Assembly: GCF_014334335.1 (NCBI RefSeq)
Contig: NZ_JACSEU010000001.1
Location: forward strand, 1,860,001 to 1,924,000
DNA from: Treponema sp. Marseille-Q3903
GTDB taxonomy: Bacteria > Spirochaetota > Spirochaetia > Treponematales > Treponemataceae
Direction: 5' to 3'
DNA length: 64,000 bases
The notes under the pieces were generated by a model, which was not told the DNA's origin, did no database searches, and saw only the letters and a program-made list of their open reading frames with translations. Shown piece after piece: positions 18,044 through 38,973 of this stretch. Made by a program: the position numbers and the translations under genes. The first letter of the stretch is position 1, and each line of letters opens with the position of its first letter.

Positions 18044-18592
18044 TTACTGTAGGATTATTCCACTTTTTCCCATTGCTTTTATAAAATCTGGCAAAGGCTC
18101 AGTTTTATCATAACGCCAGTCATAAACACCTTCTTTAATAGTATTAAGGATTCTTGCTGACATTTCCTCATAACTTGGCAAATTTGGATTTGTTACCAGT
18201 ATTGAAGAAATGCAGGTGTCGTCATATTTACTGCCTTTATACACATCCTTTATTGTCATTCTGATCTTGTCTGTCTTTGCTGGCAGTTTTATAACGGTAT
18301 ATCTTACAATGTCATCAAGTTCGTACTCCTGTGCGAATTTTGGATTTTCACTTTCTATTAGTACAGTTTTTACCCTGCTGTTCTTTTCATACAAATCCAT
18401 GCGTGTAAAGTCTACAAAGCCGTTCAGTATCTGCATTTCATCAGACTTCCACTTGAACTCCATATCCAGATATTCGCCTATGCCATAACCCTTTACACCT
18501 TCTACCCATGGAGGGGTTATTGAGTCGTAAAGAGTTTTATCATAGTCATCTGTATCCATATAATAAATTTTTTCAAGAATATTATTCGCCAA
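18044..18592 (-). pseudogene. C-terminal half of interrupted tip-partner (putative immunity) gene, copy 2
   Basis: It encodes 182 residues from a TTG, but the frame is open back to the TAA at 18719-18721 and joins the gene at 18719-19141 without any shift. The domain (PPWVEGVKGYGIGEYLDMEF, NSRVKTVLIES, YDDTCISSILV) is a discoidin-like beta-sandwich of the kind annotated as NADase-type glycan-binding. Compared with the intact 367-residue relative at 19641-20744 it lacks only the stop-free link. Nearly identical to 28734-29282. Confidence 0.75.
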
Positions 18593-18718
18593 ATACTCTA
18601 CAAAACCGTTCCTAGTATTTTCCGATAAAGAAGATGACGCTTTGATTGATTTTATACCAGCATCATAAATTGCAACTCTGTGAGTCTCTCTACATGATTC
18701 TATATAGGTTTTATCGGA

Positions 18719-19141
18719 TTATTTTTTGTATTCTTTCCACATTTTATAATCAAAACTTTTCCTATCATCAATATCACGAAACATTTCGTTTGGCATATCT
18801 ACTCCATATTTTGGTCTAACAATAATGGGAATTATTATACCTTTTCCTTCTATGTAGTATTCATCTATATTAGATTCTTTTTTCCTCGAAAGAGAATTTT
18901 TTACAAAGTAACCTTGAACTTCTTTTTCCACATCATACGAATACTGAAGAAGAAGCCCCTCTTTTTCAAAAACTTCCCTTTTACCAGCTGTAATAATAGC
19001 AAATTGTTTTTCACTTAAATAATATAAAATCAGTCCTTTATCATAAATATTTGTAAAATAAGTTATATCTATATTAATTTTTTCAGAAAATAGCATTGCC
19101 TCCATAAAAAAAACACTAAAAATTAAGATAATTTTCTTCAT
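18719..19141 (-). pseudogene. N-terminal half of interrupted tip-partner (putative immunity) gene, copy 2
   Basis: It has 140 residues with a signal peptide (MKKIILIFSVFFMEAMLFSE) and a GKGIIIPIIVRP strand pair shared with the 367-residue relative. It ends at an in-frame ochre codon after KMWKEYKK; the next codons continue the homology (SDKTYIESC). Its ATG overlaps the stop of the preceding toxin tip by 4 bp. Identical in organisation to 29409-29831. It may still give an exported N-terminal fragment. Confidence 0.75.
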
Positions 19142-19644
19142 GGTCTCAACTTTCCTTTTAAATGAATATTAAACTGGTAACCATTGTAAATACGAAGTTC
19201 TCTATATCGTTCTAGTTGCTTATTAAAGTAGTACGCACCTGTGCCAATACTTTGTTTACTATTCCAATTTCCAACATTTTTATCACTCATAGGTCCAAAG
19301 CAGTTTTCAGACCCAGCATTTTGACTCATAGAATGATATAAAGTAGATTTTGCTCCAGGTCTATCTTTGCCTGTCATATCAAGAGTACGCCCTTCCATAG
19401 TTACAGCACCATTAAACACTCCAACTTGGTCTACTCCATATGCATTTTTTCTCCATGGGTTGGAATTAACTAAATACATCTTAAAATATTCAGAAACAAT
19501 GGTCTGTCTAGGATTATTTATATTATCAATACTGGTAAATGCATTTTCAAAATTTTCATTTGCTATGTATGTACCTGTAAAAACATCTTTCATCCAAAAT
19601 TTGACATCAGTGTTATCACGGTCTTCATAAATAATCTTAGTCAT
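19138..19644 (-). CDS. Orphan toxin tip, His/Cys (L,D-transpeptidase-like) type
   Basis: This 168-residue stand-alone copy of the C-terminal tip of the giant protein starts at MTKIIYEDRDN. Residues from NPRQTIVSEYF onward equal the tip of the 2,944-residue protein. The probable active motif is H-x(10)-C in LYHSMSQNAGSENCFGPMS, like the HG...GCI motif of YkuD/DUF5675 folds; this is inference. The ATG overlaps the stop of the upstream partner gene (ATGA) and its own stop overlaps the next partner gene, so unlike the other orphans it could be translated by coupling. Confidence 0.6.
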   Translation of the reverse strand: MTKIIYEDRDNTDVKFWMKDVFTGTYIANENFENAFTSIDNINNPRQTIVSEYFKMYLVNSNPWRKNAYGVDQVGVFNGAVTMEGRTLDMTGKDRPGAKSTLYHSMSQNAGSENCFGPMSDKNVGNWNSKQSIGTGAYYFNKQLERYRELRIYNGYQFNIHLKGKLRP

Positions 19645-20744
19645 TTTTCCGAAACATCCCTTATAAACCTTTGCAATGCCATTGCTTCATAGTGTGATGA
19701 TTTATCATAGCCGTCAATTAAGGCATTTAAAATATTTTCTTTCATTTCTTCGTAGTTTGGAACATTTGGATTTGTTACAAGAATCGAAGAAAGACATGTA
19801 TCCCTATATTTTGTGCCTGGGTATACATCTTTAATAGTCATACGGATTTTATCTGTTTTTTGTGGAAGATTTATTACCGTGTATTTTACAAGGTCTTCAA
19901 GTTGATATTCTTCCAAAAACTTCGGGCTTTCGCTTTCGATAAGTACGGTTTTTACTCTGCTGTTCTTTTCATACAAATCCATCCGGGTAAAGTCTACAAA
20001 TCCATTTAAAATCTGCAGTTCATCTGATAGCCACTTGAATTCAATATCAAGATATTCTCCGATTCCATAGTCATCCTTGCCTTCTACCCAGGGAGGAGTG
20101 ATTGAATCATATTGGATAAAATCATAATCTTGCCCTGGCCGGTAATAAATCTTTTCTAATATATTATTTGCCGAATAGGTTACTCTTCCTTTTCTTGTAT
20201 TTTCAGACATACACGAACTAGCAAAAATATTTTTTATACCAGAATCATATATTTTCACACAATTCATTTGCAATTCCATATCGATTGCATCATATTGTTC
20301 AATTTCCTTAAACTGCTTCCATTTTTTTAAACTAAAAGATGCTATATCATTTGCATTCTCCCACATCTCATAAGGAATCCATATTGGAACAATATCCTCA
20401 GGTGTAACTATAATTTCCATAATTACACCTTTTCCAGGTACATAATATCTATATTTTTTTTTCCCATGATTCAAATAAGAATATTTATCTCTCAAAAAAT
20501 GGTCATGAGTTTCTAAATGTATGCTTACACATTCTCTTTCAATTCTTAATCCTGAAAGTATTTCCGAATCTTTTTTATGACCCTTTAATATACCATATTG
20601 ATTATTTGTTAAAATTCTTACAGTCAACCATTCTGAGTCAGAGTAATTTATAAAGTCACTTGTATCTAAGTAAAAATTCTCCGAATAAGTTTTTAATAAT
20701 ACAAGAAGAAAAAATAGACTTAGGATAAATATCTTTCTAATCAT
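19641..20744 (-). CDS. Exported discoidin-like partner (putative immunity) of the 549-residue orphan tip
   Basis: This intact 367-residue member has a signal peptide (about residues 1-21), a unique N-terminal region and a C-terminal discoidin-like / NADase-type glycan-binding domain from about residue 200 (PPWVEGKDDYGIGEYLDIEF, NSRVKTVLIES, YRDTCLSSILV). It overlaps the stop of the upstream tip gene by 4 bp. It is the template that shows the other two copies are interrupted. Strict pairing with one tip class and export to the periplasm suggest immunity; a lectin-like accessory role is the alternative. Confidence 0.6.
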   Translation of the reverse strand: MIRKIFILSLFFLLVLLKTYSENFYLDTSDFINYSDSEWLTVRILTNNQYGILKGHKKDSEILSGLRIERECVSIHLETHDHFLRDKYSYLNHGKKKYRYYVPGKGVIMEIIVTPEDIVPIWIPYEMWENANDIASFSLKKWKQFKEIEQYDAIDMELQMNCVKIYDSGIKNIFASSCMSENTRKGRVTYSANNILEKIYYRPGQDYDFIQYDSITPPWVEGKDDYGIGEYLDIEFKWLSDELQILNGFVDFTRMDLYEKNSRVKTVLIESESPKFLEEYQLEDLVKYTVINLPQKTDKIRMTIKDVYPGTKYRDTCLSSILVTNPNVPNYEEMKENILNALIDGYDKSSHYEAMALQRFIRDVSEK

Positions 20745-22390
20745 TTTAATCTCCCCTTTAAATGTACATTAAACTGATAACCATTATAAATTCCAAGTTT
20801 CTTATATAGATCTAATTGTGTTTGAAAATAATAGGCACCTGTTCCCTTATTTTCTTTTTTAGAATAACCTCCCATCTGAAAATCACTCATTGTACCAAAG
20901 CATCCTTCCATTGTTCCGAATTGATCTGTTGGATGATACAAAAATCGTTTGAAATCAGTACCGTCAAAACCTTGTATATCAATTGTATTACCTGCAGCCG
21001 TTTGTGCATTAGAAAAAAGACCTACTGTATCTACTCCATATTTTCTCGAATCATAATCAATTAACCTCATATTGAAATACTCAGAAACAATTGAATTCTT
21101 ATGGTTCACATTATCAATACTGGTAAATGCATTGTCAAATGTCTGTCGGGCAATATCCTTCCCTGTAAACACATCTTTCATCCAAAATGTAGCCGATGTA
21201 TTATCACGGTCTTCATAAGCAACATTTTTTCTATCTTTATATCCGCCTTTTCCGTCATCATACACACTGAATGCATTATCTTCTCGGGTAAAATCCAGTC
21301 CCGCCGTAAAGAATACATACTTTCCTGTATCCACTTCCCTATAGACTCCAAGACTGTCATTTTGTTCCAAACCAGGAATGGTTAGATTTCCACCACTCCA
21401 TTTTGATGTTGATGAATCCCAGTTGGCGCCATTTTTTGTCAATAAATACTCAGTTATCAATTTTTCTTTATTGTTTTCAAATATTGACTTATATTCAGAA
21501 GAAGGAATTTTATCAATATCAAGTCCTGTCACACTTTTAATTACTTCATCGGGTATTTGTCCCAAACTGTCTATTGTTCCACCTAACATTTTTTGAACAT
21601 TTTCAATACCAATGGCATTTAATAATGCAAGGGATTTGGAACCCGTAAAATCAGATCCTTCAATTTTTTCTGGTATATAGTCACCTTTTTCATCGACGAT
21701 TTCTCTTGAAAAATAATAATTTCCATCATCTTCAATAGAGCCGTCAAGCTTAAATAACCAATAATCCGCAGAATAATCATAATTATCACCTACATATTTT
21801 CCGAATGCGCCCCAGTCACCGGTTGCGAGCGCATAGTCAAAGGCCGTCATGTCGTTTTTCAGGTTTATGTCTGTATTTATAAAACCGGTCATCATGTCCT
21901 TGTACATGCTGTCGCCCTGCATTCGTTTTGCAAGGGCTGTGTGTCCCAGAACAGCTTCCTCAGTCTCGTTGAACTGACTCTGAGCATCTCCTACAACTCC
22001 ATCCCTATATGATTCATGTCCTAGTGTTATTCCCATTGCAAGCTTCTCTTCTCGTGTCATGTTTTCTTTGTAGCTGTTCAGGTATACCGTTCGCCTTCCG
22101 TTTTCTGCTACGGTCTGCGCCTTGCAGTCTCCATTGCCGCGCTTTAGTTCCGTTCTGTCTTTTAGTATATCTTCCAGCTGGGCAAGCTGTTTTTCATCTC
22201 CAAAGCCGTACTGGGTACGGTGCGCTGTTGCCGCATTGGCTATATTGCTCCGGTTTGCGGCTCGCATTATCTGCAGATTCTTGTTCAATGTCTTTATGCC
22301 CTGCAGTGACGAGGTTACTGTTCCAAAACTCAGGTCTGTGCCGCCTGTATACTTCTTATAGATATTTTCAATCAATATATATTTGAACAA
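20741..22390 (-). CDS. Orphan C-terminal cassette, His/Cys tip variant
   Basis: 549 residues, starting at a TTG and homologous from GGTDLSFG to the giant protein from about residue 2385 on. It keeps the pre-tip region with LGHESYRDGVVG and ETEEAVLGHTALAKRM, then a tip sharing only scattered identity with the giant tip over the last 110 or so residues (FLYHPTDQFGTMEGCFGTM). No signal peptide, hydrophobic region or coiled coil is present and no promoter is seen. It looks like a silent cassette that could replace the expressed tip by recombination. Confidence 0.7.
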   Translation of the reverse strand: MFKYILIENIYKKYTGGTDLSFGTVTSSLQGIKTLNKNLQIMRAANRSNIANAATAHRTQYGFGDEKQLAQLEDILKDRTELKRGNGDCKAQTVAENGRRTVYLNSYKENMTREEKLAMGITLGHESYRDGVVGDAQSQFNETEEAVLGHTALAKRMQGDSMYKDMMTGFINTDINLKNDMTAFDYALATGDWGAFGKYVGDNYDYSADYWLFKLDGSIEDDGNYYFSREIVDEKGDYIPEKIEGSDFTGSKSLALLNAIGIENVQKMLGGTIDSLGQIPDEVIKSVTGLDIDKIPSSEYKSIFENNKEKLITEYLLTKNGANWDSSTSKWSGGNLTIPGLEQNDSLGVYREVDTGKYVFFTAGLDFTREDNAFSVYDDGKGGYKDRKNVAYEDRDNTSATFWMKDVFTGKDIARQTFDNAFTSIDNVNHKNSIVSEYFNMRLIDYDSRKYGVDTVGLFSNAQTAAGNTIDIQGFDGTDFKRFLYHPTDQFGTMEGCFGTMSDFQMGGYSKKENKGTGAYYFQTQLDLYKKLGIYNGYQFNVHLKGRLK

Positions 22391-22396
22391 ATTAAC

Positions 22397-23094
22397 CTAT
22401 TCCTCATAGATAAGATTATTTTCCATAACAGTCCAATTTTCCGACAAAGACAAAAAGGGAATATAACCTTCTTTATCTTCGTACTCCACTTTTAGCCAAA
22501 TATCATTTTTTGACTTTTCCGTACAACATACATCGATTATATTGAAAATATTCTCTGGAATTAATTCCATTATTATTTCAGAATCCAAAGATTTTGATTT
22601 TCTTAAAAATGTTTTTTCTTTTACAAAAAAATTTGACTCAAATTTATTTACAGACCCTATTGTATCTTCTGCTATAAAAATTGGATCAATACCATAGACT
22701 TCTACAATCCAAGATGCTGTATTTGATATTTTTTCTTTATCTATTCTTGCTTTATATTTAAGAAACATTCTTTTTTCTTCAGCAGAAGTTTCTTCCGCCC
22801 CTATCCAAATCTCTATAAAATCTATCTCTATAAAATTATCTTCAAAATTAATATTATCAAAATTTAAATAATATCCAGCTGAACTAAAACCTAAAGTAAT
22901 TTTATTTGGATATTCAAACAATAATTCTCCGACTAAAAAATCTTCATCACCCTAAGACAGATATATAGAGAGTCATAAGATATGTTATACTTATCAAAAA
23001 AACAAGTTTGCAGATTTGGATTTTTTTTTACAACTTGAGCGTAAAAATAAGATGCAAACAAAAACATAGAAACAAAAAAAATATTTTTTTTCAT
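22397..23094 (-). pseudogene. Exported SH3-domain partner (putative immunity) of the 836-residue M23 cassette, frameshifted
   Basis: The ATG at 23094 opens a signal peptide (MKKNIFFVSMFLFASYFYAQ) and about 50 residues ending at a stop after LRVMKIF. Shifting one base near 22955 continues with GDEDFLVGELLFEYPN and runs 174 further residues to 22397. The C-terminal part has a bacterial SH3-like fold (FLRKSKSLDSEIIMELIP ... WLKVEYEDKEGYIPF). It begins 2 bp after the M23 cassette stop. The pair at 25832-26542 has the same architecture, so the frameshift is secondary or an error. Confidence 0.65.
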
Positions 23095-23096
23095 TA

Positions 23097-25607
23097 TTAT
23101 CTCCTATTATGCCAATACTGATAATTTTTTCTGTACTCCCAATGCAAATGAGAATTCGTAGAATTACCTGTGTTACCAACATTTCCAATCTGAGTACCGG
23201 CTGGAATATAAGTTCTCCATAAATTACTTGAAGTTGTATAATTTGAAAGATTTTTCAGTTTTGCAGTTGCAATAGAATTTTCTTGCAAATGACCATAATA
23301 AGTAGTATTTCTATTACCAAAAAGTCTTACTTCATATCCTGTGTTTTTATTCAATGGCAAATTTTTATTTACAGAATTTGAGTATAAATAACTATCAATA
23401 TTCGTATAAACTATATCACCTTGTTTTCCATACGTAGCTAAATCAATTGCAAAGCCACGAGGATTTCCCCAACCATGATTAGCATACGTCCCATTTTTAT
23501 AATGATAAGTTGATTTTGTGGAAATTCCTATTGTTTCACTATCAATAGGATTTAAAATTCCTCCAGAACCGAAAGCATTATAAATATAGTTGTCATCACA
23601 AAATGCATTTGTATTAATTATTCTTTCAATTTCTCTAAAAGCACTTTTAGAATCTGAAGAATTATACTGTTTATTTAATTTATCATTAAAATAATTAATC
23701 ATATAACTATCATATTTCTTTGCATAATCATAAAATTCGAACAATAAATTAAGCTGCAATAGCTGATCATTAGTAATTAATCCATTTTCAAATGCATAGT
23801 CTGATTTGTACATAGATACAGCAGTCTCCATACTACCGCCAAAATCAGACCAGACTCTATCAGCATAGTTAACCTGAAAATCATATGCAGCCTTAAACGA
23901 ATCCGATGTTTTTATACTAGAGTTTTCTGGCTTTCCAATCCATGCTTTCTTGTCTGCATCCCAAACATAATCGTTATGCAATTTTGAACTGGCTTCCTCT
24001 ACAGAAATACCAAGCATTTTCGCCAAAGAATCTGTATATCCCCCACTGCCTTCATAATGTTTTAATAGAAGACCGTTTTCATCGTACAAATCTTTAGAGC
24101 CATCAAAAACTATATTTCCATCACTTAATACCCGCCAATAATCCGCAGAATAATCATAATTATTTCCCACATATTTTCCAAATGCGCCCCAGTCACCGGT
24201 TGCGAGCGCATAGTCAAAGGCCGTCATGTCGTTTTTCAGGTTTACGTCTGTATTTATAAGACCAGTCATCATGTCCTTGTACATGCTGTCGCCCTGCATT
24301 CGTTTTGCAAGGGCTGTGTGTCCAAGCACTGCTTCCGCAGTCTCGTTGAACTGACTCTGAGCATCTCCTACAACTCCATCCCTATATGATTCATGTCCTA
24401 GTGTTATTCCCATTGCAAGCTTCTCTTCACGTGTCATGTTTTCTTTGTATTTATTTAGATAGACTGTACGCTGACCGTTTTCCATAACAGTCTGGGCATC
24501 GCCCTTTCCATCGCCTGCCTTTATCGCGGCTTTACCGTTCAATATATCATCAAGCTGCTGCATTTGTTTTTCATCGCCGAAGCCGTACTGCATACGTAAC
24601 GCTGTGGCTGCATTTTCCATATTATTTGCTTTAGCAGCTTTTTTTATCTTTGAGTTCATATTCAGATTATTAATTCCTGCAAGTGCTGTTTTCAGATTTC
24701 CCATGCTTACATCCGTTCCGCCGGTTCCTATTCTACTGGAAAAACCTTTTTTGCCTCCCAAAGTTACTTCCAACAATCCACTGCTTGCTCCTGCTCCAAA
24801 ATCAGATATATTAAGGACATTAAATGTCGCCTCTCCCGTTAATCCGTATGTAACTGCGGTACTTGCAAGACTTCCGATTGTTGAATTTAAATTTGAAATA
24901 CTTCCTATCTGGCTTGAGTTGAATCCGTCCAGTTTGCTGTGCTCAAGTCTTGTTATCTTTTTGCCGCCTTCACCAAGAACATTTTCATATCGTGCGCCGA
25001 CTACAGCCTCGCTCAGGCTATTCGTCACAAGGCTTCCTGCAGTGCTTGAGATACAGCCTTTCCAGGTGTCAAAGCTCTTCATACTGGCAGAAAATTTGTC
25101 CCAATCTCCTCCACTTTGTATTGCATTTACCGTTACTGTGCTGGTTACACTCGTTGCAGCACTTACTCCAGTCTTTGCTACCACTCCTCCTATCCCACTT
25201 AATCCCGAAACTGCAGCTCCTGCTCCCGCTCCCAACACACTTATCGCACTTGTTGCCGCACTCGTTGCAAGCTGCTTTCCTATCTCTTCAGGACTTTTAT
25301 ATTCTCCTGCTAAATCAAGTAAGGCAAAAAGACATTCATTTGTAAATGTTATCGCTGCTCCTATAGCTGCTACCGCCATCGCTCCCAGAACTGCTGATGA
25401 ACCTACTGTAAACGGACTTGCTACTGCTCCTACTATTGCCGCCGCCGCTGCTGCCGCTACACAGGCTACTGTACGAATGCTTGGAGGTTCAAAGCCAAGG
25501 AAATCTCCAGACCAGAGTTTCTGATCCCAGCCGGGCTTAGCAAGTTCTGAAATTCCCTTGCCTTTCTGGACTTCATTCCATGCAAAATTGAGCATTATTG
25601 AGCCCAT
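23097..25607 (-). CDS. Orphan C-terminal cassette with M23 metallopeptidase tip
   Basis: The cassette has 836 residues from MGSIMLNFAW. The first 500 or so residues nearly equal the giant protein (Ala-rich hydrophobic stretch about 40-115, then LGHESYRDG near 405). Homology in the same frame begins upstream near 25727 but has no start codon. The tip is unrelated to the giant tip and matches M23 peptidases: H-x(10)-D in HGWGNPRGFAID, YYGHL, GTQIGNVGNTGNSTNSHLHW. It should cut peptidoglycan peptides if delivered. It is followed after 2 bp by an SH3-domain partner. Confidence 0.75.
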   Translation of the reverse strand: MGSIMLNFAWNEVQKGKGISELAKPGWDQKLWSGDFLGFEPPSIRTVACVAAAAAAAIVGAVASPFTVGSSAVLGAMAVAAIGAAITFTNECLFALLDLAGEYKSPEEIGKQLATSAATSAISVLGAGAGAAVSGLSGIGGVVAKTGVSAATSVTSTVTVNAIQSGGDWDKFSASMKSFDTWKGCISSTAGSLVTNSLSEAVVGARYENVLGEGGKKITRLEHSKLDGFNSSQIGSISNLNSTIGSLASTAVTYGLTGEATFNVLNISDFGAGASSGLLEVTLGGKKGFSSRIGTGGTDVSMGNLKTALAGINNLNMNSKIKKAAKANNMENAATALRMQYGFGDEKQMQQLDDILNGKAAIKAGDGKGDAQTVMENGQRTVYLNKYKENMTREEKLAMGITLGHESYRDGVVGDAQSQFNETAEAVLGHTALAKRMQGDSMYKDMMTGLINTDVNLKNDMTAFDYALATGDWGAFGKYVGNNYDYSADYWRVLSDGNIVFDGSKDLYDENGLLLKHYEGSGGYTDSLAKMLGISVEEASSKLHNDYVWDADKKAWIGKPENSSIKTSDSFKAAYDFQVNYADRVWSDFGGSMETAVSMYKSDYAFENGLITNDQLLQLNLLFEFYDYAKKYDSYMINYFNDKLNKQYNSSDSKSAFREIERIINTNAFCDDNYIYNAFGSGGILNPIDSETIGISTKSTYHYKNGTYANHGWGNPRGFAIDLATYGKQGDIVYTNIDSYLYSNSVNKNLPLNKNTGYEVRLFGNRNTTYYGHLQENSIATAKLKNLSNYTTSSNLWRTYIPAGTQIGNVGNTGNSTNSHLHWEYRKNYQYWHNRR

Positions 25608-25831
25608 TTGGCCGGAACCGTCAAACTCTGTATTGTCGCTGAGTGAATCTGACGGATCTACATCTTTTATTAAAGTACCGCCTTCTCCAACCCAGATATC
25701 AAACTCGCCTTTTTGTCTATCGTTTTCTTCCCATTGTGCAAAACACCTTTCTTATCTTATCAGCTGTTTACACTTTGAACCAGTCTCCTTTTGTGTTCTA
25801 TTTTACAGGCGCATTATACCCGAAAAAAATG

Positions 25832-26542
25832 TTAATTTTCGATACTTTCCAGGATTTTTTCTTTATCTGAATACCCGAGATTTTCATCTTCAAAGAAAAT
25901 TCTTACATAGTATCCGTAAATCCAGCCATATTGATTTTCACTAATTTTTACTTTATACCATGGATTTTTTTCACCATCGATTTTTTCATCAAAGGTTTTC
26001 CTTTGCTCGTATAAAGTTACTTCGTCTCTCTTCTTCAGCGTACCAATTTTCTTTCCCTCCAAAGATGGTTCATCACGGACATTTAAATCATCGATTATAA
26101 TTGCTTGACACGTTATCGGATAGGTTTGTGAGGTATCAATTGAAACTCTTGTAAAATGATTCCAAGAATTCTTAGCCTTCATTAAATCTTCAACAGAAAC
26201 ATTTACTTTTAATCGTTCTGGAAATGACCACCTAAAATAACTTCTATTCTCATCAAAAAAATTCTGAGCGAAACATCTTGTATAATAGATTTCTAGATAA
26301 TCACCTTTAATAAGATAATCAGGATTAATAATTATTGAAAATGTTCCATTTCCAGAACTTGACACATGACCTTTGTCAAAATGAATTACACCTGCTAAAT
26401 TATCTGATTTTTCATTAAATCTTAATCCAATTGTTATAGTTTCATTTAGCAGAAAATCTTGGATATTCACTCCATTTGCAATTACTTTCCCATTAAAAAA
26501 AATACAAACAATAAGAAAAATCAAAATATTATTTTTTTTCAT
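25832..26542 (-). CDS. Exported SH3-domain partner (putative immunity) of the 703-residue M23 cassette
   Basis: 236 residues, with a signal peptide (about 1-23), a middle beta-rich region and a clear SH3b domain near residues 145-215 (LNVRDEPSLEGKKIGTLKKR, then WYKVKISENQYGWIYGYYV). It starts 3 bp after the M23 cassette stop. SH3b domains bind peptidoglycan peptides, so a periplasmic protein of this type could shield the wall from, or bind, the paired M23 enzyme. Immunity is inferred from pairing and location. Confidence 0.65.
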   Translation of the reverse strand: MKKNNILIFLIVCIFFNGKVIANGVNIQDFLLNETITIGLRFNEKSDNLAGVIHFDKGHVSSSGNGTFSIIINPDYLIKGDYLEIYYTRCFAQNFFDENRSYFRWSFPERLKVNVSVEDLMKAKNSWNHFTRVSIDTSQTYPITCQAIIIDDLNVRDEPSLEGKKIGTLKKRDEVTLYEQRKTFDEKIDGEKNPWYKVKISENQYGWIYGYYVRIFFEDENLGYSDKEKILESIEN

Positions 26543-29831: not shown

Positions 29832-32800
29832 GGTCTCAACTTTCCTTTTAAATGAATATTAAACTGGTAACCATTGTAAATACGAAGTTCTCTATATCGT
29901 TCTAGTTGCTTATTAAAGTAGTACGCACCTGTGCCAATACTTTGTTTACTATTCCAATTTCCAACATTTTTATCACTCATAGGTCCAAAGCAGTTTTCAG
30001 ACCCAGCATTTTGACTCATAGAATGATATAAAGTAGATTTTGCTCCAGGTCTATCTTTGCCTGTCATATCAAGAGTACGCCCTTCCATAGTTACAGCACC
30101 ATTAAACACTCCAACTTGGTCTACTCCATATGCATTTTTTCTCCATGGGTTGGAATTAACTAAATACATCTTAAAATATTCAGAAACAATGGTCTGTCTA
30201 GGATTATTTGTATTATCAATACTGGTAAATGCATTGTCAAATGTCTGTCGGGCAATATCCTTCCCTGTAAACACATCTTTCATCAAAAATGTAGCCGATT
30301 TATTATCACGGTCTTCAAAAGCAACTTTTTTTTTATCTTTATACCCGCCTTTCCCGTCATCATACACACTAAATGCATTATCTTCGCGGATAAAACCCAG
30401 TCCCGCCGTAAAGAATACATACTTTCCTGTATCCACTTCCCTATAAACTCCAAGACTGTCATTTTGTTCCAAACCAGGAATGGTTAGATTTCCACCACTC
30501 CATTTTGATGTTGATGAATCCCAGTTGGCGCCATTTTTTGTCAATAAATACTCAGCTATCAATTTTTCTTTATTGTTTTCAAATATTGACTTATGTTCAG
30601 AAGAAGGAATTTTATCAATATCAAGTCCTGTCACACTTTTAATTACTTCATCGGGTATTTGTCCCAAACTGTCTATTGTTCCACCTAACATTTTTTGAAC
30701 ATTTTCAATACCAATGGCATTTAATAATGCAAGGGATTTGGAACCCGTAAAATCAGATCCTTCAATTTTTTCTGGTATATAGTCACCTTTTTCATCGACG
30801 ATTTCTCTTGAAAAATAATAATTTCCATCATCTTCAATAGAGCCGTCAAGCTTAAATAACCAATAATCCGCAGAATAATCATAATTATCACCTACATATT
30901 TTCCAAATGCGCCCCAGTCACCGGTTGCGAGCGCATAGTCAAAGGCCGTCATGTCGTTTTTCAGGTTTACGTCTGTATTTATAAGACCAGTCATCATGTC
31001 CTTGTACATGCTGTCGCCCTGCATTCGTTTTGCAAGGGCTGTGTGTCCCAGAACAGCTTCCGCAGTCTCGTTGAACTGACTCTGAGCATCTCCTACAACT
31101 CCATCCCTATATGCCTCGTGTCCTAGTGTTATTCCCATTGCAAGCTTCTCTTCACGTGTCATGTTTTCTTTATATTTATTTAGATAAACTGTACGCTGAC
31201 CATTTTCCATAACAGTTTGTGCATCTCCATTACCGGTACCGGCTTTCAAACCTGATTTTCCATTGAGAATATCATCCAGTTGTTTCAACTGCTTCTCATC
31301 TCCAAAACCGTACTGCATACGTAACGCTGTGGCTGCATTTTCCATATTATTATTGGCTGCTGCTTTCTTAATCTTTTCGTTCATCTTAAGGTTATTGATT
31401 CCTGCCAGTGCAGTCATTAAACTACCTCTGCTTACATCTGCTCCGCCGGTTCCTATTCTACTGGAAAAACCTTTTTTGCCTCCCAAAGTTACTTCCAACA
31501 ATCCACTGCTTGCTCCTGCTCCAAAATCAGATATATTAAGGACATTAAATGTCGCCTCTCCCGTTAATCCGTATGTAACTGCGGTACTTGCAAGACTTCC
31601 GATTGTTGAATTTAAATTTGAAATACTTCCTATCTGGCTTGAGTTGAATCCGTCCAGTTTGCTGTGCTCAAGTCTTGTTATCTTTTTGCCGCCTTCACCA
31701 AGAACATTTTCATATCGTGCGCCGACTACAGCCTCGCTCAGGCTATTCGTCACAAGGCTTCCTGCAGTGCTTGAGATACAGCCTTTCCAGGTGTCAAAGC
31801 TCTTCATACTGGCAGAAAATTTGTCCCAATCTCCTCCACTTTGTATTGCATTTACCGTTACTGTGCTGGTTACACTCGTTGCAGCACTTACTCCAGTCTT
31901 TGCTACCACTCCTCCTATCCCACTTAATCCCGAAACTGCAGCTCCTGCTCCCGCTCCCAACACACTTATCGCACTTGTTGCCGCACTCGTTGCAAGCTGC
32001 TTTCCTATCTCTTCAGGACTTTTATATTCTCCTGCTAAATCAAGTAAGGCAAAAAGACATTCATTTGTAAATGTTATCGCTGCTCCTATAGCTGCTACCG
32101 CCATCGCTCCCAGAACTGCTGATGAACCTACTGTAAACGGACTTGCTACTGCTCCTACTATTGCCGCCGCCGCTGCTGCCGCTACACAGGCTACTGTACG
32201 AATGCTTGGAGGTTCAAAGCCAAGGAAATCTCCAGACCAGAGTTTCTGATCCCAGCCGGGCTTAGCAAGTTCTGAAATTCCCTTGCCTTTCTGGACTTCA
32301 TTCCATGCAAAATTGAGCATTATTGAGCCCATTTGGCCGGAACCGTCAAACTCTGTATTGTCGCTGAGTGAATCTGACGGATCTACATCTTTTATTAAAG
32401 TACCGCCTTCTCCAACCCAGATATCAAACTCGCCTTTTTGTCTATTGTCTCCTTCACCTTTTCCAAAAATCTGGATACGCCACTGTTCAAGATCACTTTC
32501 ATCTTGAGCCATTGCCAATGCAAGCGATGCGCCTTCAAGGTTTCCTAATAAAGCAGTACTGATTGACACCTCTGGAATTGCAGTTTTAAACCACTGGAAA
32601 CTGTTTACACGCTGAGTCTCGTGTTTTGTTCCCATCAAACTTGAGTCAACTGTTACAGTTCGTGAACTTCCATTTTTAGTCCACTGATATCCGGCACCTA
32701 AAACAAGCTCTTTTACATAATCTTCATAATATTTATTATAATTATCTACCATTTTGTAGCTCTGTTCAATATTAGCTTCAATGTTTTCTACAGCATGTGC

Positions 32801-35800
32801 AGCTGCAAGTTTGGAAGCTGTCGCTTCCATCTTTGATGTTATTTCTGCAGAAATATTTTGAGAAACCAAGAGTCCGGCAATCGAATCTGCGGCATCACTT
32901 GTATTCATAGCGGAAAGGCCATGTATCTTGTCAAGTCTTGTTCCTACCTCTGCCATATGGCTTTCAAGGTTTGCAAGGTTTGTACTGCCAAGAAGCTCAC
33001 TTACATAATAATCTGTATCAAATGAGACTCCATTCATTTTTTCAAGTGTAATATTTCTTGCCTTTTCCAATGACTTACTTGCCAACTCTGCAGTCTTTTC
33101 CTCTGTAAATGATGTCTGATTAGCGGCTTCGACATACATTGTTGTAATCCATTCCTGTTTATCATTCAGAAAGTCATCATAGTTGTTCTGCCACTCTTCT
33201 GTATTTTTCTGATATGCTTTTAAGAAATCTCTCTTCCATGTATTATACACTGCATTTAATTTTTCTTCTGCCTTACACCATTCAACTCTTGATGCATCTC
33301 TTATATCATATATTTGATTTAAGACATTGTTATTTTGTGTTACAAAAGAATTCTTACCATAATTAAGTTCATTTTTATATTCTTCTAGTTTAGCATTCTT
33401 TCTATTTTCAAGAACATCAGAATAATTTACATACCAGTTGTTCAGCATTTCTGATATATATATTTCTGCCGCTCTATTTTCATTTGTAAAGATTTTTGAG
33501 TTGCCATTTACATAAGATTCAAACAAAGTAGACAATGATTCAGTACGCCTACTTGAATTAAATGTATTAGCGCCCCAGGTCTTGTCTGCCAATGTTTTCA
33601 GATAATCTCTGTCTGCTGTAACTGTCAATGAATTAAATAATTGCTCATAGGCTTCTGAAGCTGCATTTCGTTCTGTAACGGTAAGTGTGAGGTCAGAAGC
33701 TTTTATTGCAAGTTCTCTCAATTTTTCTTTACTTTCTTTTGAAATCGCAATTCCTTTATTTACTTCTGCTTCATAAAGTTTTGAATAATTATACTGACTG
33801 CTGAACAATGTATTCTGCTCATTTTCCAGCAACGTTTTTGCCTGAGCTGCCTCGCTCTGGAATGCAACTACAGCAGCTTTCATTGCCTCAACTACATTTT
33901 TATACTCTGCATCATCATTTATCTTGCCAAGAATAGTATCTATATCAACCTTAGCTTTTACATCATCTGAAAGAATAGCACGAATTGTCTTCTTCAGCTG
34001 GCTGCCTTTCACATTTTCGTCTGTTGGAGTATCTGAACCAGTTGAAATCTTGTAGAAATTCTTTTTAGCGTTATTCATTGTTTCTTTTGAAGAAGTTATA
34101 CCATTTACGCTGTTTTCAAATTCTTTGTAGTGGCTATCATAAATTGACGAAACTCCAGTTTTTGCATTTTTCATTGTATCAGATGCTTCTTCTGCCCATC
34201 GTCCTTCTGCATCAAGTCCTCTGAATAATCCCCACAAAAACCATTTTGAGAACCAGTGATCAGCTTTTATACCATCAAGCCAACTTTCTACTCTTCCATA
34301 TGCATATTCTTTTACTGTATTTGTTTCGAGTTTCTCAATATTTGATGAATATTTTCCAGAAATATTTCTGAAAAGAATACATTTTGCAATATCTGTTGAA
34401 CTTACAGAATTGTAACAAGTGCTTAAATATGACACTACAGCATTCTTAAATGTTTCGCCTACATTATTGCCATGCTGTTTGCTATATCCATTTACATAAA
34501 AATCGGCCAGATTCACACCATCAGCTAATACTGCAAAAACATCTTCATTAGAATCATTCTCAACGAACCCCTTATTAGAGACTACGAAATATTCGTAATA
34601 AACTGCAGCCGCAATTACCTGCTTAAAATATGATGGATTATCCTTCATACTATTAAACCACTGCTCTGCTTCTATTTCACAAGCAGTCTTTGGAATTGTT
34701 CCAAGGGTAACAGTTTTTCCGTTTGAATTTTCGTATTTCTTATTATAAAAACAGTCTGAAGCTTTTGTTTCTGCATTTCTATTAAGTTCATAAGAAACAC
34801 TGATATTATTCTTACTGTCTACTGTAACTACAGTTTTTACACCTTTAGCACAACTATTATCCTTTGCAGAACCTATCAAAGACATCCTTGCATTCTCTAC
34901 ATTCTGTTCTGCGCGCTGCAATTGAGCATACGCTTCCTGTGCTTTTTCTGCAACTTCATAACTTATTACATAAGCTTCATAATAAAGCTTGTCTTTATCC
35001 TTGAAGTCTTTGATTAAAGCAGTGTCCGATTCTTCGGTCTTCTTTGTTTTAACCTCATTGAGAATATCTAATGAAAGTTTCGCTCTATTGTAAGAATACT
35101 GTACACTGCTTAATTTTTCTTTAGGTGTAATGTAGTCAGAGCCGGCTGTGTCTCCGATGTTTTCAAGATAGATACTCTCAGCCCAGTCATAAACTGCCTC
35201 TGCGGCTCTTAGTTTTTTTCGTGCTTCTAATACATCTCTATAAAATCCATTTACTTTTTCTATCTGATTATTATAGGCATTGCCCACATTTTTCAGGTTA
35301 GTAACTGCAGTCTCATAACCTTTCCGCATTGCTTGATATTCAAATTCTTTTGATGCGATTTCATCTATCTTCTGCTGAGCTTGCTGCTTTATCTGGTTTT
35401 TAGAAAGAGTATATTTTGAGTAAATCTCTGCGTATTCGCTAAGTGAGGATTCTAGTTTTGCAAGAGTCTCTAAATTCTGGTTATATGATGTATAGTCAAT
35501 TGTTTTATTCTTCGCATTTTCAATTGCTGTTAATTCTGAACTAAAGAATTTTCTCTCATTTGCAACTTTTGCGTCAAGTTCTGCCTGATGGGTAGTCTTC
35601 CAGTTATTTACTGTCTGCGCATATTTTGTTTTTTCATCATCACTTAAATGCTCAGATGCGCAGAACTGTGTATTCTTAATTTTCTCATACCAGTTGTCAA
35701 TCTCACTTGAATGGCTTACAGTGTATTTTAAGAAAACCAAAGTCCAGTAAGTTTTGGTATAGTCATCAGCTTCATCTTCCGAAAGCGTTTGTACATCAGT

Positions 35801-38662
35801 TCCATTTATTATTGTTGTAAGGTTTTCAATTTTTGATTTTACTTCTGCATCGTTATAACTGCTACTTATTCTATATCTGAAAGCTTCGCTATATAAATAT
35901 GCATTAATATACTTTGTAAGCGCGGATTCTGCTGTTTTTGTTGTTTTTATTTCTTCATTTGTCTTTTTATACAAATCACATATATAATCTATTACTTCAG
36001 TATAGCCAGACTCGGCTTTTTTCGTATTATTATTCAATTCAGATGCAATTTCACTTCTAGTTTGTTCATAAATGTTTTTTCTATATGCACAATTATTCAG
36101 ACGGCCTTCTTCATCCAGCCCATCATTTTTAGATATTAATTTTGCTCTTAAATCTTTTGAGTTCTTTCTATCAGCTACAAGAAGATTATAAGAATACTGT
36201 AATTCCGCATCTTCAAAAATATAATTTTTTGAAAGTAATAGTTTTAATTTCTCATCATCATTTAATATAGTTACAGTATTTTCTGAATCTGCTAAAGCAT
36301 TTTCTATTGTTTCAATTAATTCTTTATTACTGTCTTCTTTTATTTTTAGAATGCTAATTACATCTTGTACATAAGAATTAAAATCATTGCTGTATGATAT
36401 TGTAGAATAAGTATTCTTGGCGTTTCCCTGAGCTGCACTTACTTTTATTTCTTCACAATTTTTAAGATAGTCAAAATCTGCTTTCAGAATATTTACATAA
36501 TGCTCAACACAATAAGCCTTATATTCAATTGAATATTCACTCTTTGAAAGAATCGTATCAAGCTCAGAAGCTTTATTTCTGATATCTGTAACAACGTTAT
36601 CATTTTGTCCATAAGTAGCGCCAAGTTCAGCCAATAACACATTAATGGTCATGTAATAGCCATTTGTTTCAGTTGTGATTGCATCTCTAACAGCCGAAAG
36701 ATAACTAATTATTGTATTTTCAGAATTAATATAATCAGCCTGCTTTGATATTAAATCATCATATTCCTGTAGAACACTATTTGAATATCCTACAAAACTC
36801 ATTTCCTTTTCAGCGTCCCTCAACTGTTCTAGGACTTTTTCGTAATCATCGATAGATTTTTTTATCTGCTGTGTTACTGTCTTTATATTTACACCCTGGT
36901 CGATTGCCTGTAATGCCTCATATTCCTTTGTCAGTTTTTCTATTTCGCTTCGTTTTGCACTAAGCTGTTCATTTATTGTATTTAACTCTGCAGCCCTTTC
37001 CGAAATGGTATTATTTAAACCGCCTAGTTTTCCACTCTCTGTAGTATATGTGTTGAAAGCATCTTCGTATGCTTTTTCTGCCTGCTCTTTATCTGTTTTT
37101 GTTTTTGCCGCGGTGTCTCTACTTGCATCTGTTGTTTTTGCGTACTGTTCAACTTTCTGATTTACATACAATTCTTCTTCCCAGTATTGTACTAATTTTT
37201 CTGCTTCGCTTATTTCTATTTCAAGTTCTGACTTGAATAAAACTTTATCTCTATCACCTGTAAAATTATAAATATCTTTCAGTGTATTTTTTATCTGTTT
37301 CTTGTAATAAACTATCTGATCTATCCACTCTGCGCAGGTCTTCAAGGCTTTCAGCCTCTTTACTAATTCATCACTGCCCTGAATTGTTTCTGCTAATTTT
37401 ATTAATGTATCAAGATTACTTAAATCGGAATTTAAAGGATTATTTGGTTCATTAAAACTATTTTTATTATCGTTTATTAATTTATTTAATGAATATTCTG
37501 TAGGATTGGTAAAAAAACTAAATATTGTGTTGTTCTTTGGCATCCAGCTATTCACTATAGCTGCTAGGTCATTTTTTAACTGCTTTGATTTTTCTTCGGT
37601 AAATGTTTCTACATTAAAATCGTAGGATATTCCATTTACTCTGGTTATGTTATCCTCTGTCTTCCAATATGAATATAGCCCATTATAATTTGTACTCCAT
37701 ACTCCATACCAACTCTCAATTCCTTCTTTTGCCATAACTAAAGCAGATCGTAAACTGTTATATAAAGTTATCTGGCTTTCAGCAATTTGCAGCATTCTTG
37801 TTTTTTCACTGGCAAGTGCTGCGTTATATGAATTATACATTTTAATTATTGTATTTTCATAATCGATATTTTTCTGTTCAATTTCTTTTTGAGTTTTCTT
37901 TATTCTTTCATTTATGCCCTCTTCCCATTCTATTCTCTTTTGTCTCAATTCCGCATATGCTTCCGCCCACTTCTGTTCGCTTTCCTGGAATGTTATAGAG
38001 GCCTCTTTTTCCCATTCTTGACGACTTTTTAAAAATTCAGTTTCCGCATCTTCCCAAACTGCTAGGCCTTTATTAAATACTGTTTTAAAATTCTCAAGCA
38101 AATCTGAAACTTCCACATCATCAACACTTTCTCTTTTCAAAGATTTTTCAAGACTTGTAAAAAGAGTTTCCATTGCGGCATCAGAGACTGTTAATGCGTC
38201 ATCTGCAAGTTCTTTTGCAATTACTTTAGCAGCATCTGCTGATTTTTCTGCTTTAATCGATTCTTTGTCTTCTAGGAATCTAGCAACAAGATTACTTCCT
38301 TCGCTTCTTGAGAGCTGAATGCTTTCTGTTCTTAAAGCAGTACGGTTGTTTATTGCTACATTGTTATAAACATTTTCAACGTCTGCACTGTAAATTCCTT
38401 TTTCAAGGAGGCGCTGTTTAATTTCTGGTAACTGATTTAAGTTTTCTGTATCAAGTTTTTTGAGGTAGCTGTTTATTATATTCTCAGACTCTTCATACCA
38501 TGATATCTGAAGTTGGCTTGACTCATTCAAAGAATACCCTCTGGTATCAAATTCTGCCCTAGATTCTTTTAACTTGTTTGCCAACTCATTATTTACTTTT
38601 GCAGACGAGGCTCTATTTACTTTATCACAAAGCCACTTAACATAACTTTTGTTCTTTTCCAT
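29828..38662 (-). CDS. Giant coiled-coil polymorphic-toxin-like protein (2,944 residues visible, about 3,047 with displaced N-terminus)
   Basis: Residues 1-2050 or so are almost all helical and coiled coil, with tryptophan-glutamate motifs recurring about every 10-15 residues (for example SRQEWEKEASITF, QKWAEAYAELRQKRIEWEEG, TEEWQNNYDDFLNDKQEW). From about 2150 a 70-residue Ala/Gly-rich hydrophobic region follows. A beta-rich part and a conserved pre-tip block come next, with LGHEAYRDGVVG near 2516 and ETAEAVLGHTALAKRM behind it. The variable tip is the last 140 residues (H-x(10)-C in LYHSMSQNAGSENCFG). The ATG at 38662 has no Shine-Dalgarno, and the frame stays open upstream through a signal peptide. 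From memory, unchecked, it recalls the very large leptospiral TIGR04388 proteins. It follows the RND genes by about 42 bp. Confidence 0.75.
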   Translation of the reverse strand: MEKNKSYVKWLCDKVNRASSAKVNNELANKLKESRAEFDTRGYSLNESSQLQISWYEESENIINSYLKKLDTENLNQLPEIKQRLLEKGIYSADVENVYNNVAINNRTALRTESIQLSRSEGSNLVARFLEDKESIKAEKSADAAKVIAKELADDALTVSDAAMETLFTSLEKSLKRESVDDVEVSDLLENFKTVFNKGLAVWEDAETEFLKSRQEWEKEASITFQESEQKWAEAYAELRQKRIEWEEGINERIKKTQKEIEQKNIDYENTIIKMYNSYNAALASEKTRMLQIAESQITLYNSLRSALVMAKEGIESWYGVWSTNYNGLYSYWKTEDNITRVNGISYDFNVETFTEEKSKQLKNDLAAIVNSWMPKNNTIFSFFTNPTEYSLNKLINDNKNSFNEPNNPLNSDLSNLDTLIKLAETIQGSDELVKRLKALKTCAEWIDQIVYYKKQIKNTLKDIYNFTGDRDKVLFKSELEIEISEAEKLVQYWEEELYVNQKVEQYAKTTDASRDTAAKTKTDKEQAEKAYEDAFNTYTTESGKLGGLNNTISERAAELNTINEQLSAKRSEIEKLTKEYEALQAIDQGVNIKTVTQQIKKSIDDYEKVLEQLRDAEKEMSFVGYSNSVLQEYDDLISKQADYINSENTIISYLSAVRDAITTETNGYYMTINVLLAELGATYGQNDNVVTDIRNKASELDTILSKSEYSIEYKAYCVEHYVNILKADFDYLKNCEEIKVSAAQGNAKNTYSTISYSNDFNSYVQDVISILKIKEDSNKELIETIENALADSENTVTILNDDEKLKLLLSKNYIFEDAELQYSYNLLVADRKNSKDLRAKLISKNDGLDEEGRLNNCAYRKNIYEQTRSEIASELNNNTKKAESGYTEVIDYICDLYKKTNEEIKTTKTAESALTKYINAYLYSEAFRYRISSSYNDAEVKSKIENLTTIINGTDVQTLSEDEADDYTKTYWTLVFLKYTVSHSSEIDNWYEKIKNTQFCASEHLSDDEKTKYAQTVNNWKTTHQAELDAKVANERKFFSSELTAIENAKNKTIDYTSYNQNLETLAKLESSLSEYAEIYSKYTLSKNQIKQQAQQKIDEIASKEFEYQAMRKGYETAVTNLKNVGNAYNNQIEKVNGFYRDVLEARKKLRAAEAVYDWAESIYLENIGDTAGSDYITPKEKLSSVQYSYNRAKLSLDILNEVKTKKTEESDTALIKDFKDKDKLYYEAYVISYEVAEKAQEAYAQLQRAEQNVENARMSLIGSAKDNSCAKGVKTVVTVDSKNNISVSYELNRNAETKASDCFYNKKYENSNGKTVTLGTIPKTACEIEAEQWFNSMKDNPSYFKQVIAAAVYYEYFVVSNKGFVENDSNEDVFAVLADGVNLADFYVNGYSKQHGNNVGETFKNAVVSYLSTCYNSVSSTDIAKCILFRNISGKYSSNIEKLETNTVKEYAYGRVESWLDGIKADHWFSKWFLWGLFRGLDAEGRWAEEASDTMKNAKTGVSSIYDSHYKEFENSVNGITSSKETMNNAKKNFYKISTGSDTPTDENVKGSQLKKTIRAILSDDVKAKVDIDTILGKINDDAEYKNVVEAMKAAVVAFQSEAAQAKTLLENEQNTLFSSQYNYSKLYEAEVNKGIAISKESKEKLRELAIKASDLTLTVTERNAASEAYEQLFNSLTVTADRDYLKTLADKTWGANTFNSSRRTESLSTLFESYVNGNSKIFTNENRAAEIYISEMLNNWYVNYSDVLENRKNAKLEEYKNELNYGKNSFVTQNNNVLNQIYDIRDASRVEWCKAEEKLNAVYNTWKRDFLKAYQKNTEEWQNNYDDFLNDKQEWITTMYVEAANQTSFTEEKTAELASKSLEKARNITLEKMNGVSFDTDYYVSELLGSTNLANLESHMAEVGTRLDKIHGLSAMNTSDAADSIAGLLVSQNISAEITSKMEATASKLAAAHAVENIEANIEQSYKMVDNYNKYYEDYVKELVLGAGYQWTKNGSSRTVTVDSSLMGTKHETQRVNSFQWFKTAIPEVSISTALLGNLEGASLALAMAQDESDLEQWRIQIFGKGEGDNRQKGEFDIWVGEGGTLIKDVDPSDSLSDNTEFDGSGQMGSIMLNFAWNEVQKGKGISELAKPGWDQKLWSGDFLGFEPPSIRTVACVAAAAAAAIVGAVASPFTVGSSAVLGAMAVAAIGAAITFTNECLFALLDLAGEYKSPEEIGKQLATSAATSAISVLGAGAGAAVSGLSGIGGVVAKTGVSAATSVTSTVTVNAIQSGGDWDKFSASMKSFDTWKGCISSTAGSLVTNSLSEAVVGARYENVLGEGGKKITRLEHSKLDGFNSSQIGSISNLNSTIGSLASTAVTYGLTGEATFNVLNISDFGAGASSGLLEVTLGGKKGFSSRIGTGGADVSRGSLMTALAGINNLKMNEKIKKAAANNNMENAATALRMQYGFGDEKQLKQLDDILNGKSGLKAGTGNGDAQTVMENGQRTVYLNKYKENMTREEKLAMGITLGHEAYRDGVVGDAQSQFNETAEAVLGHTALAKRMQGDSMYKDMMTGLINTDVNLKNDMTAFDYALATGDWGAFGKYVGDNYDYSADYWLFKLDGSIEDDGNYYFSREIVDEKGDYIPEKIEGSDFTGSKSLALLNAIGIENVQKMLGGTIDSLGQIPDEVIKSVTGLDIDKIPSSEHKSIFENNKEKLIAEYLLTKNGANWDSSTSKWSGGNLTIPGLEQNDSLGVYREVDTGKYVFFTAGLGFIREDNAFSVYDDGKGGYKDKKKVAFEDRDNKSATFLMKDVFTGKDIARQTFDNAFTSIDNTNNPRQTIVSEYFKMYLVNSNPWRKNAYGVDQVGVFNGAVTMEGRTLDMTGKDRPGAKSTLYHSMSQNAGSENCFGPMSDKNVGNWNSKQSIGTGAYYFNKQLERYRELRIYNGYQFNIHLKGKLRP

Positions 38663-38973
38663 TTCAAGATATAACTGGGCTTCATTTTTCTGCTTAAGGT
38701 ATTCTTCATAGTCGTTTTCTTTTAAATATGTATTTTCACTTTCCCAATAAAGCAGGGCCTCATGTAAACCTGTCTCCGCCTTTTTCTCCCAATCAGATTC
38801 TTCATATTCTAATTCCGCCTTGTCAAGGTAATAATCTAACCGATTTTTACTTTCATCAAATGCGTGTGTAATTGCTTGGGCTGGTAATAGACCGGTTAGA
38901 TATACCAGTACTAAAATTACTGATATGAATCTGTAAAATCTTTCACGAATTCTATTTCGTAATTTTTTTTCAC
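38663..38973 (-). other. Displaced N-terminus of the giant gene: GTG start, A8 tract and signal peptide
   Basis: In frame with the giant protein, 103 or so upstream codons encode KKLRNRIRERFYRFISVILV, then LVYLTGLLPAQA (signal peptide) and more W/E-rich helix. A GTG at 38971-38973 preceded by GGGGTTAGT is the natural start, but the A-tract behind it (38962/3-38970) has 8 A and 9 are needed to enter the frame. With 8 the GTG frame stops after about 18 codons. Phase variation, transcriptional slippage or a sequence error would explain it. Confidence 0.6.

Follow-up and report, generated by a model that had tools for sequence, protein, structure and literature searches.

Contact-dependent growth inhibition (CDI), with its components CdiA, CdiB and CdiI, is among the closest described counterparts of the locus considered here and is known to include arrays of orphan cdiA-CT/cdiI modules (PMC3150448). 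The present locus lies in Treponema sp. Marseille-Q3903, in a stretch of 64,000 nt (assembly GCF_014334335.1, contig NZ_JACSEU010000001.1, positions 1,860,001-1,924,000, forward strand), which is called the window below and in whose positions all coordinates are given. On its minus strand, the gene of a giant protein, G, is followed by four orphan cassettes, O1 to O4, and preceded by an operon for RND-type permeases and their partners. Based on comparison with related genomes, we read the locus as a spirochaetal polymorphic toxin–immunity system directed at the cell wall, with a probability of roughly 0.72. It is like CDI in its giant signal-peptide protein, in a C-terminus that varies past a conserved block, in the partner gene directly behind, and in downstream orphan modules with varying backbone length (PMC3150448). 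However, the boundary block here is LGHE-YRDG rather than VENN, the partners are of exported type, the operon encodes RND, membrane-fusion (MFP) and TolC proteins with immunoglobulin-like (Ig) and tetratricopeptide-repeat (TPR) proteins, and the variable ends, or tips, are peptidoglycan peptidases wherever a name could be given.

Three known routes were considered and rejected. For CDI of the two-partner secretion (TPS) type, no TPS/CdiB match was found by Pfam or NCBIfam in the giant, orphans and partners, nor by Pfam in ten upstream open reading frames (ORFs), the rest of the genome not being searched. For an Rhs or type VI secretion (T6SS) locus, no RHS, VgrG or PAAR match was found in the giant, orphans and partners, a search that did not extend to T6SS genes elsewhere in the genome. 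For type I secretion, the inner-membrane proteins are RND proteins, no ABC protein occurs among the ten operon ORFs, and the giant has an N-terminal signal-peptide stretch.

MafB/MafA of Neisseria shares the signal peptide, a lineage-specific conserved N-terminal part, a polymorphic C-terminus and a neighbouring lipoprotein gene (PMC3482391). In contrast, the backbone here is an unrelated protein of ~3,000 aa, accompanied by a nine-gene exporter-like operon. The Cdz system of Caulobacter has an exporter with a TolC-type component. Cdz is a further likeness in that contact-dependent killing is exerted by surface-held proteins through a trans-envelope exporter; however, it is without a giant backbone and exchangeable tips (PMC5380434). 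The tip enzyme kinds seen here have already been catalogued among polymorphic toxins, and many immunity genes are listed for T. denticola, but the L,D-peptidase toxin tips of that catalogue sit on RHS proteins, and the backbone here is another one with no RHS match (PMC3482391). Three features of polymorphic toxins are found in the present system, namely a conserved N-terminal part with unrelated C-terminal domains, a tip-matched downstream partner (exceptions are the six giants of one clade and 14 of the 78 remaining genes), and recombining standalone cassettes. No description of a treponemal system of this kind was found in the open-access literature, most subscription papers and bioRxiv preprints lying outside that scope.

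Giant backbone, exchangeable tips and downstream partners

The alignments indicate that the giant has a conserved backbone, which starts like a signal-peptide protein and bears an exchangeable C-terminal tip. Counted from its first ATG, G comprises 2944 aa (ORF 38662-29828), and its open frame reaches 38974, giving 3048 aa. The residues ahead of that ATG resemble a signal peptide, as in relatives, although no in-frame ATG, GTG or TTG was found ahead of the signal-peptide-like stretch; a hydrophobic stretch is present at the N-terminus of 42 of 45 giants. Proline makes up 0.5% of frame residues 140-2190 (about 2,050 aa), a part that presumably forms a long helical stalk and is followed by a hydrophobic region, the core with the LGHE-YRDG block, and the tip. 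Among the residues invariant in 42 aligned cores are H404, E405, R408, H429, Y483, D488 and W490. No family covering the core was found in Pfam, NCBIfam or PADLOC, a PHROGs search was also without result, plasmid and phage collections gave no match, and the sole match among PDB sequences was to a designed fusion protein (E 0.85).

An earlier sequence-only note on this DNA had described a giant gene followed by four orphan C-terminal cassettes, and these were recovered as ORFs (28657-26546 for O1) whose proteins are 76–91% identical to G. Its statement that the orphans end in other tips stands for O1 and O2, which have M23-type tips, and falls for O3 and O4, which share one tip family with the giant, here called H...GC. 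The last part of the O4 tip is G's own, 98–100% identical including the partner region. Along its 3′ end, G matches O2 at 100% identity between 32400 and about 31500 and differs from every orphan between 31500 and 31200 (best 88%). Its identity to O3 is 96–100% between 31100 and about 30400 and 91% on to 30200, and the region from 30200 to about 28625 is 98–100% identical to O4 and its partner genes i4 and d4. Because these segments are near-identical to O2, O3 and O4 in turn, the expressed giant copy is, as judged from the identities, a patchwork of its own cassettes, and the spare cassettes downstream have recombined with the giant gene.

Replacement of tips by recombination, which the earlier note had suggested, is borne out both by this mosaic and by close relatives in which the backbone is kept and the tips are unrelated. 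Between loci L046 (T. socranskii subsp. paredis, on the contig of L136) and L047, the backbone is 78–96% identical and the tip 18–28%; the values for L049 and L050 are 83–99% and 15–34%. The tips of close relatives diverge from the end of the conserved block onward, and both tips and cassette order vary between genomes, so that the cross-genome comparison proposed in the note does find tip exchange at that block. Genome G433 has the export operon, then a giant and six orphan cassettes, each with an exported-type gene behind it. Orphan-type cassette arrays with exported-type partners were also seen at L193, L194, L195, L196 and L197, with no frame above 1400 aa in the fetched stretches, and those of genome G145 (L196, L197) have a common repeated start, MAAESLTRS.

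Tips come with a downstream gene which, by the counts below, is mostly one for an exported partner. In the window, the claim that a signal-peptide partner directly follows every tip gene proved correct for the giant, O1, O3 and O4 (4-bp overlap or 3-bp gap). Behind O2, a signal-peptide ORF does start at 23094, but the SH3_3-like body (22921-22397) is in a different frame, so that the partner i2 is broken. The partner of G is a single frame interrupted by an in-frame stop into iG and dG, and i4 and d4 encode the same two pieces, 100% identical. The unbroken i3 starts with a signal peptide, and its N-terminal part is joined to an NADase-type glycan-binding domain.

A survey of relatives and the window itself yielded 103 ORFs with the core, the counts using those with a readable tip; 14 loci repeating other loci's contigs were dropped before the partner, clustering and tip-class counts. 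With a partnerless clade of six giants set apart, the start of an exported-type gene lies no more than 130 bp behind the tip in 35 of the 39 giants and in 29 of the 39 shorter genes. By a crude home-made rule, genes so placed score as signal-peptide or lipoprotein genes in 64 of 67 cases (64 of 68 with the partnerless clade), compared with 173 of 415 other ORFs. When 73 tips and their next genes were clustered separately, 175 pairs of loci shared both clusters against a shuffled mean of 38.5, and 0 of 10,000 shuffles reached as high, a test weakened because both M23 and Cys types fall into tip cluster 0. These statistics, like those below, ignore shared ancestry, and the similar pairs L162/L189, L178/L179 and L049/L160 each count as two. 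A glycan-binding partner stands behind 13 of 16 H...GC tips vs 1 of 57 others, and in genome G433, outside those counts and with tip types assigned by eye, behind 3 of 3 vs 0 of 4. Tip family and partner family go together, as these counts indicate.

The tips that can be named are, by profile, peptidoglycan peptidases (M23, VanY/M15 and NlpC/P60). Five of 30 Pfam-scanned tips reach the cut-off (M23 twice, VanY/M15 twice, NlpC_P60 once), and CHAP falls just below it once. Profiles built from some of the same tips sorted 85 tips, four of them from one genome (G167), into 19 H...GC, the class of the window's giant, 16 M23, 10 C39a and 8 C39b, the last two being Cys-type classes labelled by eye, with the remainder in no class. 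The O2 tip is a Peptidase_M23 domain (PF01551, E 2.8e-8); the O1 tip has no Pfam match by itself, and its M23 metal ligands align with those of 9 other tips. These ligands (H...D and HxH) are invariant in all 10 of the tips that were selected for an alignment, among them those of O1 and O2. In 13 aligned tips of the H...GC class (the type of G, O3 and O4), H252 and C263 are invariant, and by motif alone this class resembles L,D-transpeptidases of the YkuD fold, whose active site is marked by H and S-x-G-C. YkuD is present in 4 of 58 genomes of the order, and three proteins were used for comparison; the YkuD_2 profile (PF13645) matched nothing, controls included, and is hence uninformative. The profile search of tips and partners that the note had proposed thus named the O2 tip (M23), i1 (SH3_3), i3 and d4 (glycan-binding), and left the giant's tip without a match.

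An RND-type operon that accompanies the giant

A 14-kb operon upstream of G on the same strand, which the earlier note had not connected with the giant, holds TPR1, TPR2, Ig1/Ig2, Ig3, Lip5, TolC, MFP, RND1 and RND2. A conserved RND/MFP/TolC/lipoprotein operon accompanies most long giants, as gene neighbourhoods and marker counts indicate. Among 18 family-level cases with upstream sequence (the truncated giant L099 of genome G149 excluded, L056 not counted), a similar operon adjoins the giant in 11, the window included, on the same strand or divergently and in slightly varied order; at L056, it lies behind the giant on the opposite strand. For 22 further named giants with enough upstream sequence (four more had too little), it is directly upstream in 12 and divergent in 1. 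Two export-operon copies were seen in each of genomes G225 and G007 (L056, L128, L125, L129), and G225 also has two giants.

Ig3 served as the operon marker in 245 family genomes, of which 33 have core and Ig3, 12 the core alone, 8 Ig3 alone and 192 neither (p 2e-23). Of the 32 genomes whose core frame is 1500 aa or longer (frames selected by hand), 30 have Ig3, vs 8 of 200 core-free genomes (30/32 vs 11/213, Fisher p 5e-27, relatedness ignored). The two long-frame genomes without Ig3 have a completeness of 63% and 81%. In five of the 12 core-only genomes the match is weak and partial, and the others are incomplete, have a giant that is cut or truncated, or have orphans alone; the eight Ig3-only genomes comprise two with weak matches in another protein, four ending at a contig edge, and G030 and G045, where no giant lies beside the operon. 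A 1228-aa ORF behind the G030 operon was considered as a divergent giant and rejected, as it has no giant N-terminal profile match and looks AddA-type nuclease-like by eye. In the phylum sample, 17 of 17 other same-class genomes with frames of at least 1500 aa match the Ig profile at E 1e-36 or better, and in at least 10 of them the match is no farther than 20 kb from the core. Outside the class, where Ig matches were used as operon evidence only for named genomes, G270 and G286 match and G275 does not.

By identity matrices of 15 genomes, the operon diverges in step with the backbone and not with the tip: the giant N-terminus correlates with Ig3 at 0.94 and with RND1 at 0.95, and the tip at 0.11 and 0.16. 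The RND proteins are of the sequence family of AcrB/MdtB-type pumps and share their MFP and TolC operon partners, but here there are two paralogues and up to five presumed lipoproteins, and the canonical drug-pump proton relay (Asp-Asp and Lys, with residue roles as in AcrB) is altered. The first relay Asp is present in all 27 RND1 and 39 RND2 rows, three of the latter repeating one contig, and the second in 0/27 and 0/39; the Lys position of transmembrane helix 10 (TM10) is Asn in all rows that align (27 RND1, 38 RND2). As regards export, all this is an association of sequences, and we put the proposal that the RND-type operon exports the giant at somewhat less than even odds.

Weighing the readings

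Several observations weigh against the toxin–immunity reading and its export part. The window copy is damaged in RND2, Ig1/Ig2, iG (and i4), i2 and the start of G, and because several genes are affected, the window system may be inactive, decaying or off, or the assembly may be in error; unbroken forms are common among relatives. None of the six giants of the clade with a fixed Cys-type tip has a partner (0/6), and of the rest, 4 of the 39 giants and 10 of the 39 shorter genes, including O2, are without a qualifying one. No class was found for 32 of 85 tips, and 25 of 30 Pfam-scanned tips reach no cut-off; G's own H...GC tip has no accepted Pfam or PDB match, and its comparison with the three YkuD proteins gave an hhalign probability of 0.8% with the same H and GC aligned. 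In 7 of the 18 family-level cases the operon does not adjoin the giant, and for 9 of 22 named giants it is out of reach; it occurs without a giant in G030 and G045, and no marker match was found in G167, G145, G378 and G440, which have orphan arrays. The phylum-level Ig evidence is weaker because the Ig profile matches many core-free genomes (172 of 373 phylum genomes in all, up to E 1e-50 in some without the core). The matrices of the giant N-terminus and the tip still correlate at 0.29 (15 genomes), and export of proteins of such size is not known for RND pumps.

The alternative that survives best keeps the toxin–immunity system but lets the RND operon only travel with it, e.g., as a small-molecule pump, with the giant leaving the cell otherwise. 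It draws on the usual transport of small molecules by RND pumps, on the unlinked giants and giant-free operons just listed, and on a strong promoter-like site of the giant's own, a 12-of-12 sigma-70 consensus with an 18-bp spacer at 39044-39015 (−), although such sites as a whole were no commoner than in shuffles over the scanned range of 38000-54000. Because this site lies immediately upstream, G may be transcribed apart from the exporter operon. However, Ig3 is found elsewhere in the genomes of all seven unlinked giants, and the whole operon was read in six; the marker is present in nearly all long-giant genomes and absent from 192 of 200 core-free ones; G225 pairs two giants with two operons; and the loss of the second relay Asp and the TM10 Lys to Asn change argue against an ordinary pump. 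We regard a co-travelling operon as rather unlikely on balance, though a serious competitor to export.

A non-toxin role is improbable. The giant would then be a scaffold, at the surface or in the periplasm, for remodelling the peptidoglycan of its own cell; the partners would be regulators, and tip exchange would serve to vary wall chemistry or to evade phages or immunity. The nameable tips are indeed peptidoglycan enzymes, the partners have SH3 or glycan-binding domains, and in the clade with the fixed Cys-type tip, which is without a partner, the tip is the best conserved part of the giant. Nevertheless, unrelated enzymes in close relatives, cassette arrays (six cassettes in G433) and tip-matched partners form the pattern of polymorphic toxins as given in two reports (PMC3482391, PMC3150448). 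An antigenic-variation or adhesin locus, whose silent cassettes would re-shape a host-visible surface protein, is very improbable. The mosaic expression gene built from silent copies does resemble such loci, and some relatives are recorded as coming from animal guts, but neither conserved M23 metal ligands (10 of 10 chosen tips) nor a partner gene for most tips would be needed there.

Under the preferred reading of a cell-wall-directed toxin–immunity system, Sec would move the giant across the inner membrane, and the RND-MFP-TolC machine with the Ig-like and TPR proteins would carry it as far as the outer membrane or across it. The long helical stretch would span to a neighbouring cell, the hydrophobic core would assist the tip through the neighbour's outer membrane, and the tip would cut or rearrange periplasmic peptidoglycan, while the exported partner would protect the producer and its kin by blocking the tip that it matches. 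Spare cassettes would preserve immunity to other tips, with re-tipping by recombination in the conserved core. More tentatively still than export itself, RND1/RND2-MFP-TolC with the Ig-like and TPR proteins could be a previously undescribed protein-secretion system that places a 3,000-residue toxin on the surface, the altered relay reflecting this job and the tip being rewritten from silent cassettes by gene conversion.

Genomic setting, distribution and meaning

The whole toxin and export region lies within 39 kb framed by attachment-site-like 44-bp direct repeats (Table 1), a probable island that the earlier note had missed. Transposase-like genes occur near both ends; no Pfam-recognised recombinase was found, and 16353-17135 is integrase-like by eye only. 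The GC content is 0.25–0.31 in the export operon, mixed in the giant and cassettes (0.29–0.45) and 0.34–0.45 in the flanks. Taken together, the repeats, the transposase-like genes and the GC pattern suggest that the window locus is probably on an integrated island. A tRNA scan of 30 other loci found none in 27 and some at L089, L090 and L192. By eye, the Cys-tip giants without a partner at L097, L098, L096 and L100 adjoin a lipoprotein/S1/cmk block resembling that at the border of the window's island (55180-59998), and a 3323-aa ORF lies near the Cys-tip giant of L097 (L097:8831-18799).

Table 1. Features of the locus in window coordinates
Feature	Position	Strand	Remarks
tRNA-Arg(TCT)	16099..16174	+	44 of its last bases at 16130-16173
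d4, protein identical to dG	18044..18592	-	PF25302 E 9e-23, NF047619 E 5.6e-28
i4, protein identical to iG	18719..19141	-	4-bp overlap with O4
O4, tip end only, same as G's tip end	19138..19644	-	91% identity over 166 aa
i3, unbroken two-domain partner of O3	19641..20744	-	PF25302 E 1.4e-15; 4-bp overlap
O3, H...GC-type tip as in G	20741..22390	-	79% identity to G over 539 aa
i2, broken partner of O2	22397..23094	-	SH3_3-like body below Pfam cut-off
O2, Peptidase_M23 tip	23097..25607	-	90% identity to G over 549 aa
i1, signal peptide and SH3_3 domain	25832..26542	-	PF08239 E 3e-10; gap of 3 after O1
O1, M23-like tip	26546..28657	-	76% protein identity to G over 368 aa
dG, C-terminal part of iG's protein	28734..29282	-	NADase-type glycan-binding (F5/8C-like) domain
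iG, partner of G, N-terminal part with signal peptide	29409..29831	-	overlaps G by 4 bp
G, giant backbone protein	29828..38974	-	signal-peptide-like start, low-proline stretch, hydrophobic region, core, tip
Tip of G	30778..29828	-	~316 aa
Conserved pre-tip core (A1/A4), common to giant and orphans	30779..32329	-	from alignments
RND2, second RND permease, broken	39016..41879	-	ORFs 41879-40317 and 40125-39016, ACR_tran in both; frame change near 40317
RND1, first RND permease	41908..44856	-	ACR_tran E 6e-148
MFP, HlyD/CusB type	44857..46203	-	
TolC-type outer-membrane factor	46185..47567	-	OEP E 9e-19
Lip5, small presumed lipoprotein	47564..48052	-	no Pfam match; similar genes in some relatives' operons
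Ig3, Big_5 Ig-like presumed lipoprotein	48063..49574	-	operon marker
Ig1 and Ig2	49547..50969	-	ORFs 50969-50229 and 50260-49547; in relatives one Ig-like protein of about 430-530 aa
TPR2 and TPR1, presumed lipoproteins	50966..53023	-	51625-50966 (TPR2), 53023-51647 (TPR1)
Second copy of the 44-bp tRNA end	55069..55112	+	far boundary of the probable island

A single-sequence search found the core in 17 of 146 genomes of the genus, and a profile found it in 45 of 245 family genomes and in 50 of 373 phylum genomes, the latter from 29 of 161 genera; the window's genome is counted here, as are some matches that are weak and partial. Among the carriers are T. socranskii, T. parvum and T. zioleckii, along with many assemblies of uncultured spirochaetes. 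The core-bearing contigs L139 and L182 are filed under Lachnospiraceae and Bacteroidales assemblies, possibly through binning errors.

The tip exchange, the tip-matched partners, the core without a family in Pfam, NCBIfam or PADLOC and the RND/TolC operon support the earlier note's proposal of a spirochaetal toxin system of new architecture, and what they describe looks like an undescribed bacterial weapon system. How spirochaetes attack the cells around them is, to our knowledge, little understood. If the reading is true, they would possess a widespread contact weapon whose tips are directed at the cell wall and whose partners are exported; should the RND operon be its exporter, a new protein-secretion route would be added. 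The named carriers with genomes, T. socranskii, T. parvum and T. zioleckii, together with the distant ones, make the system testable.
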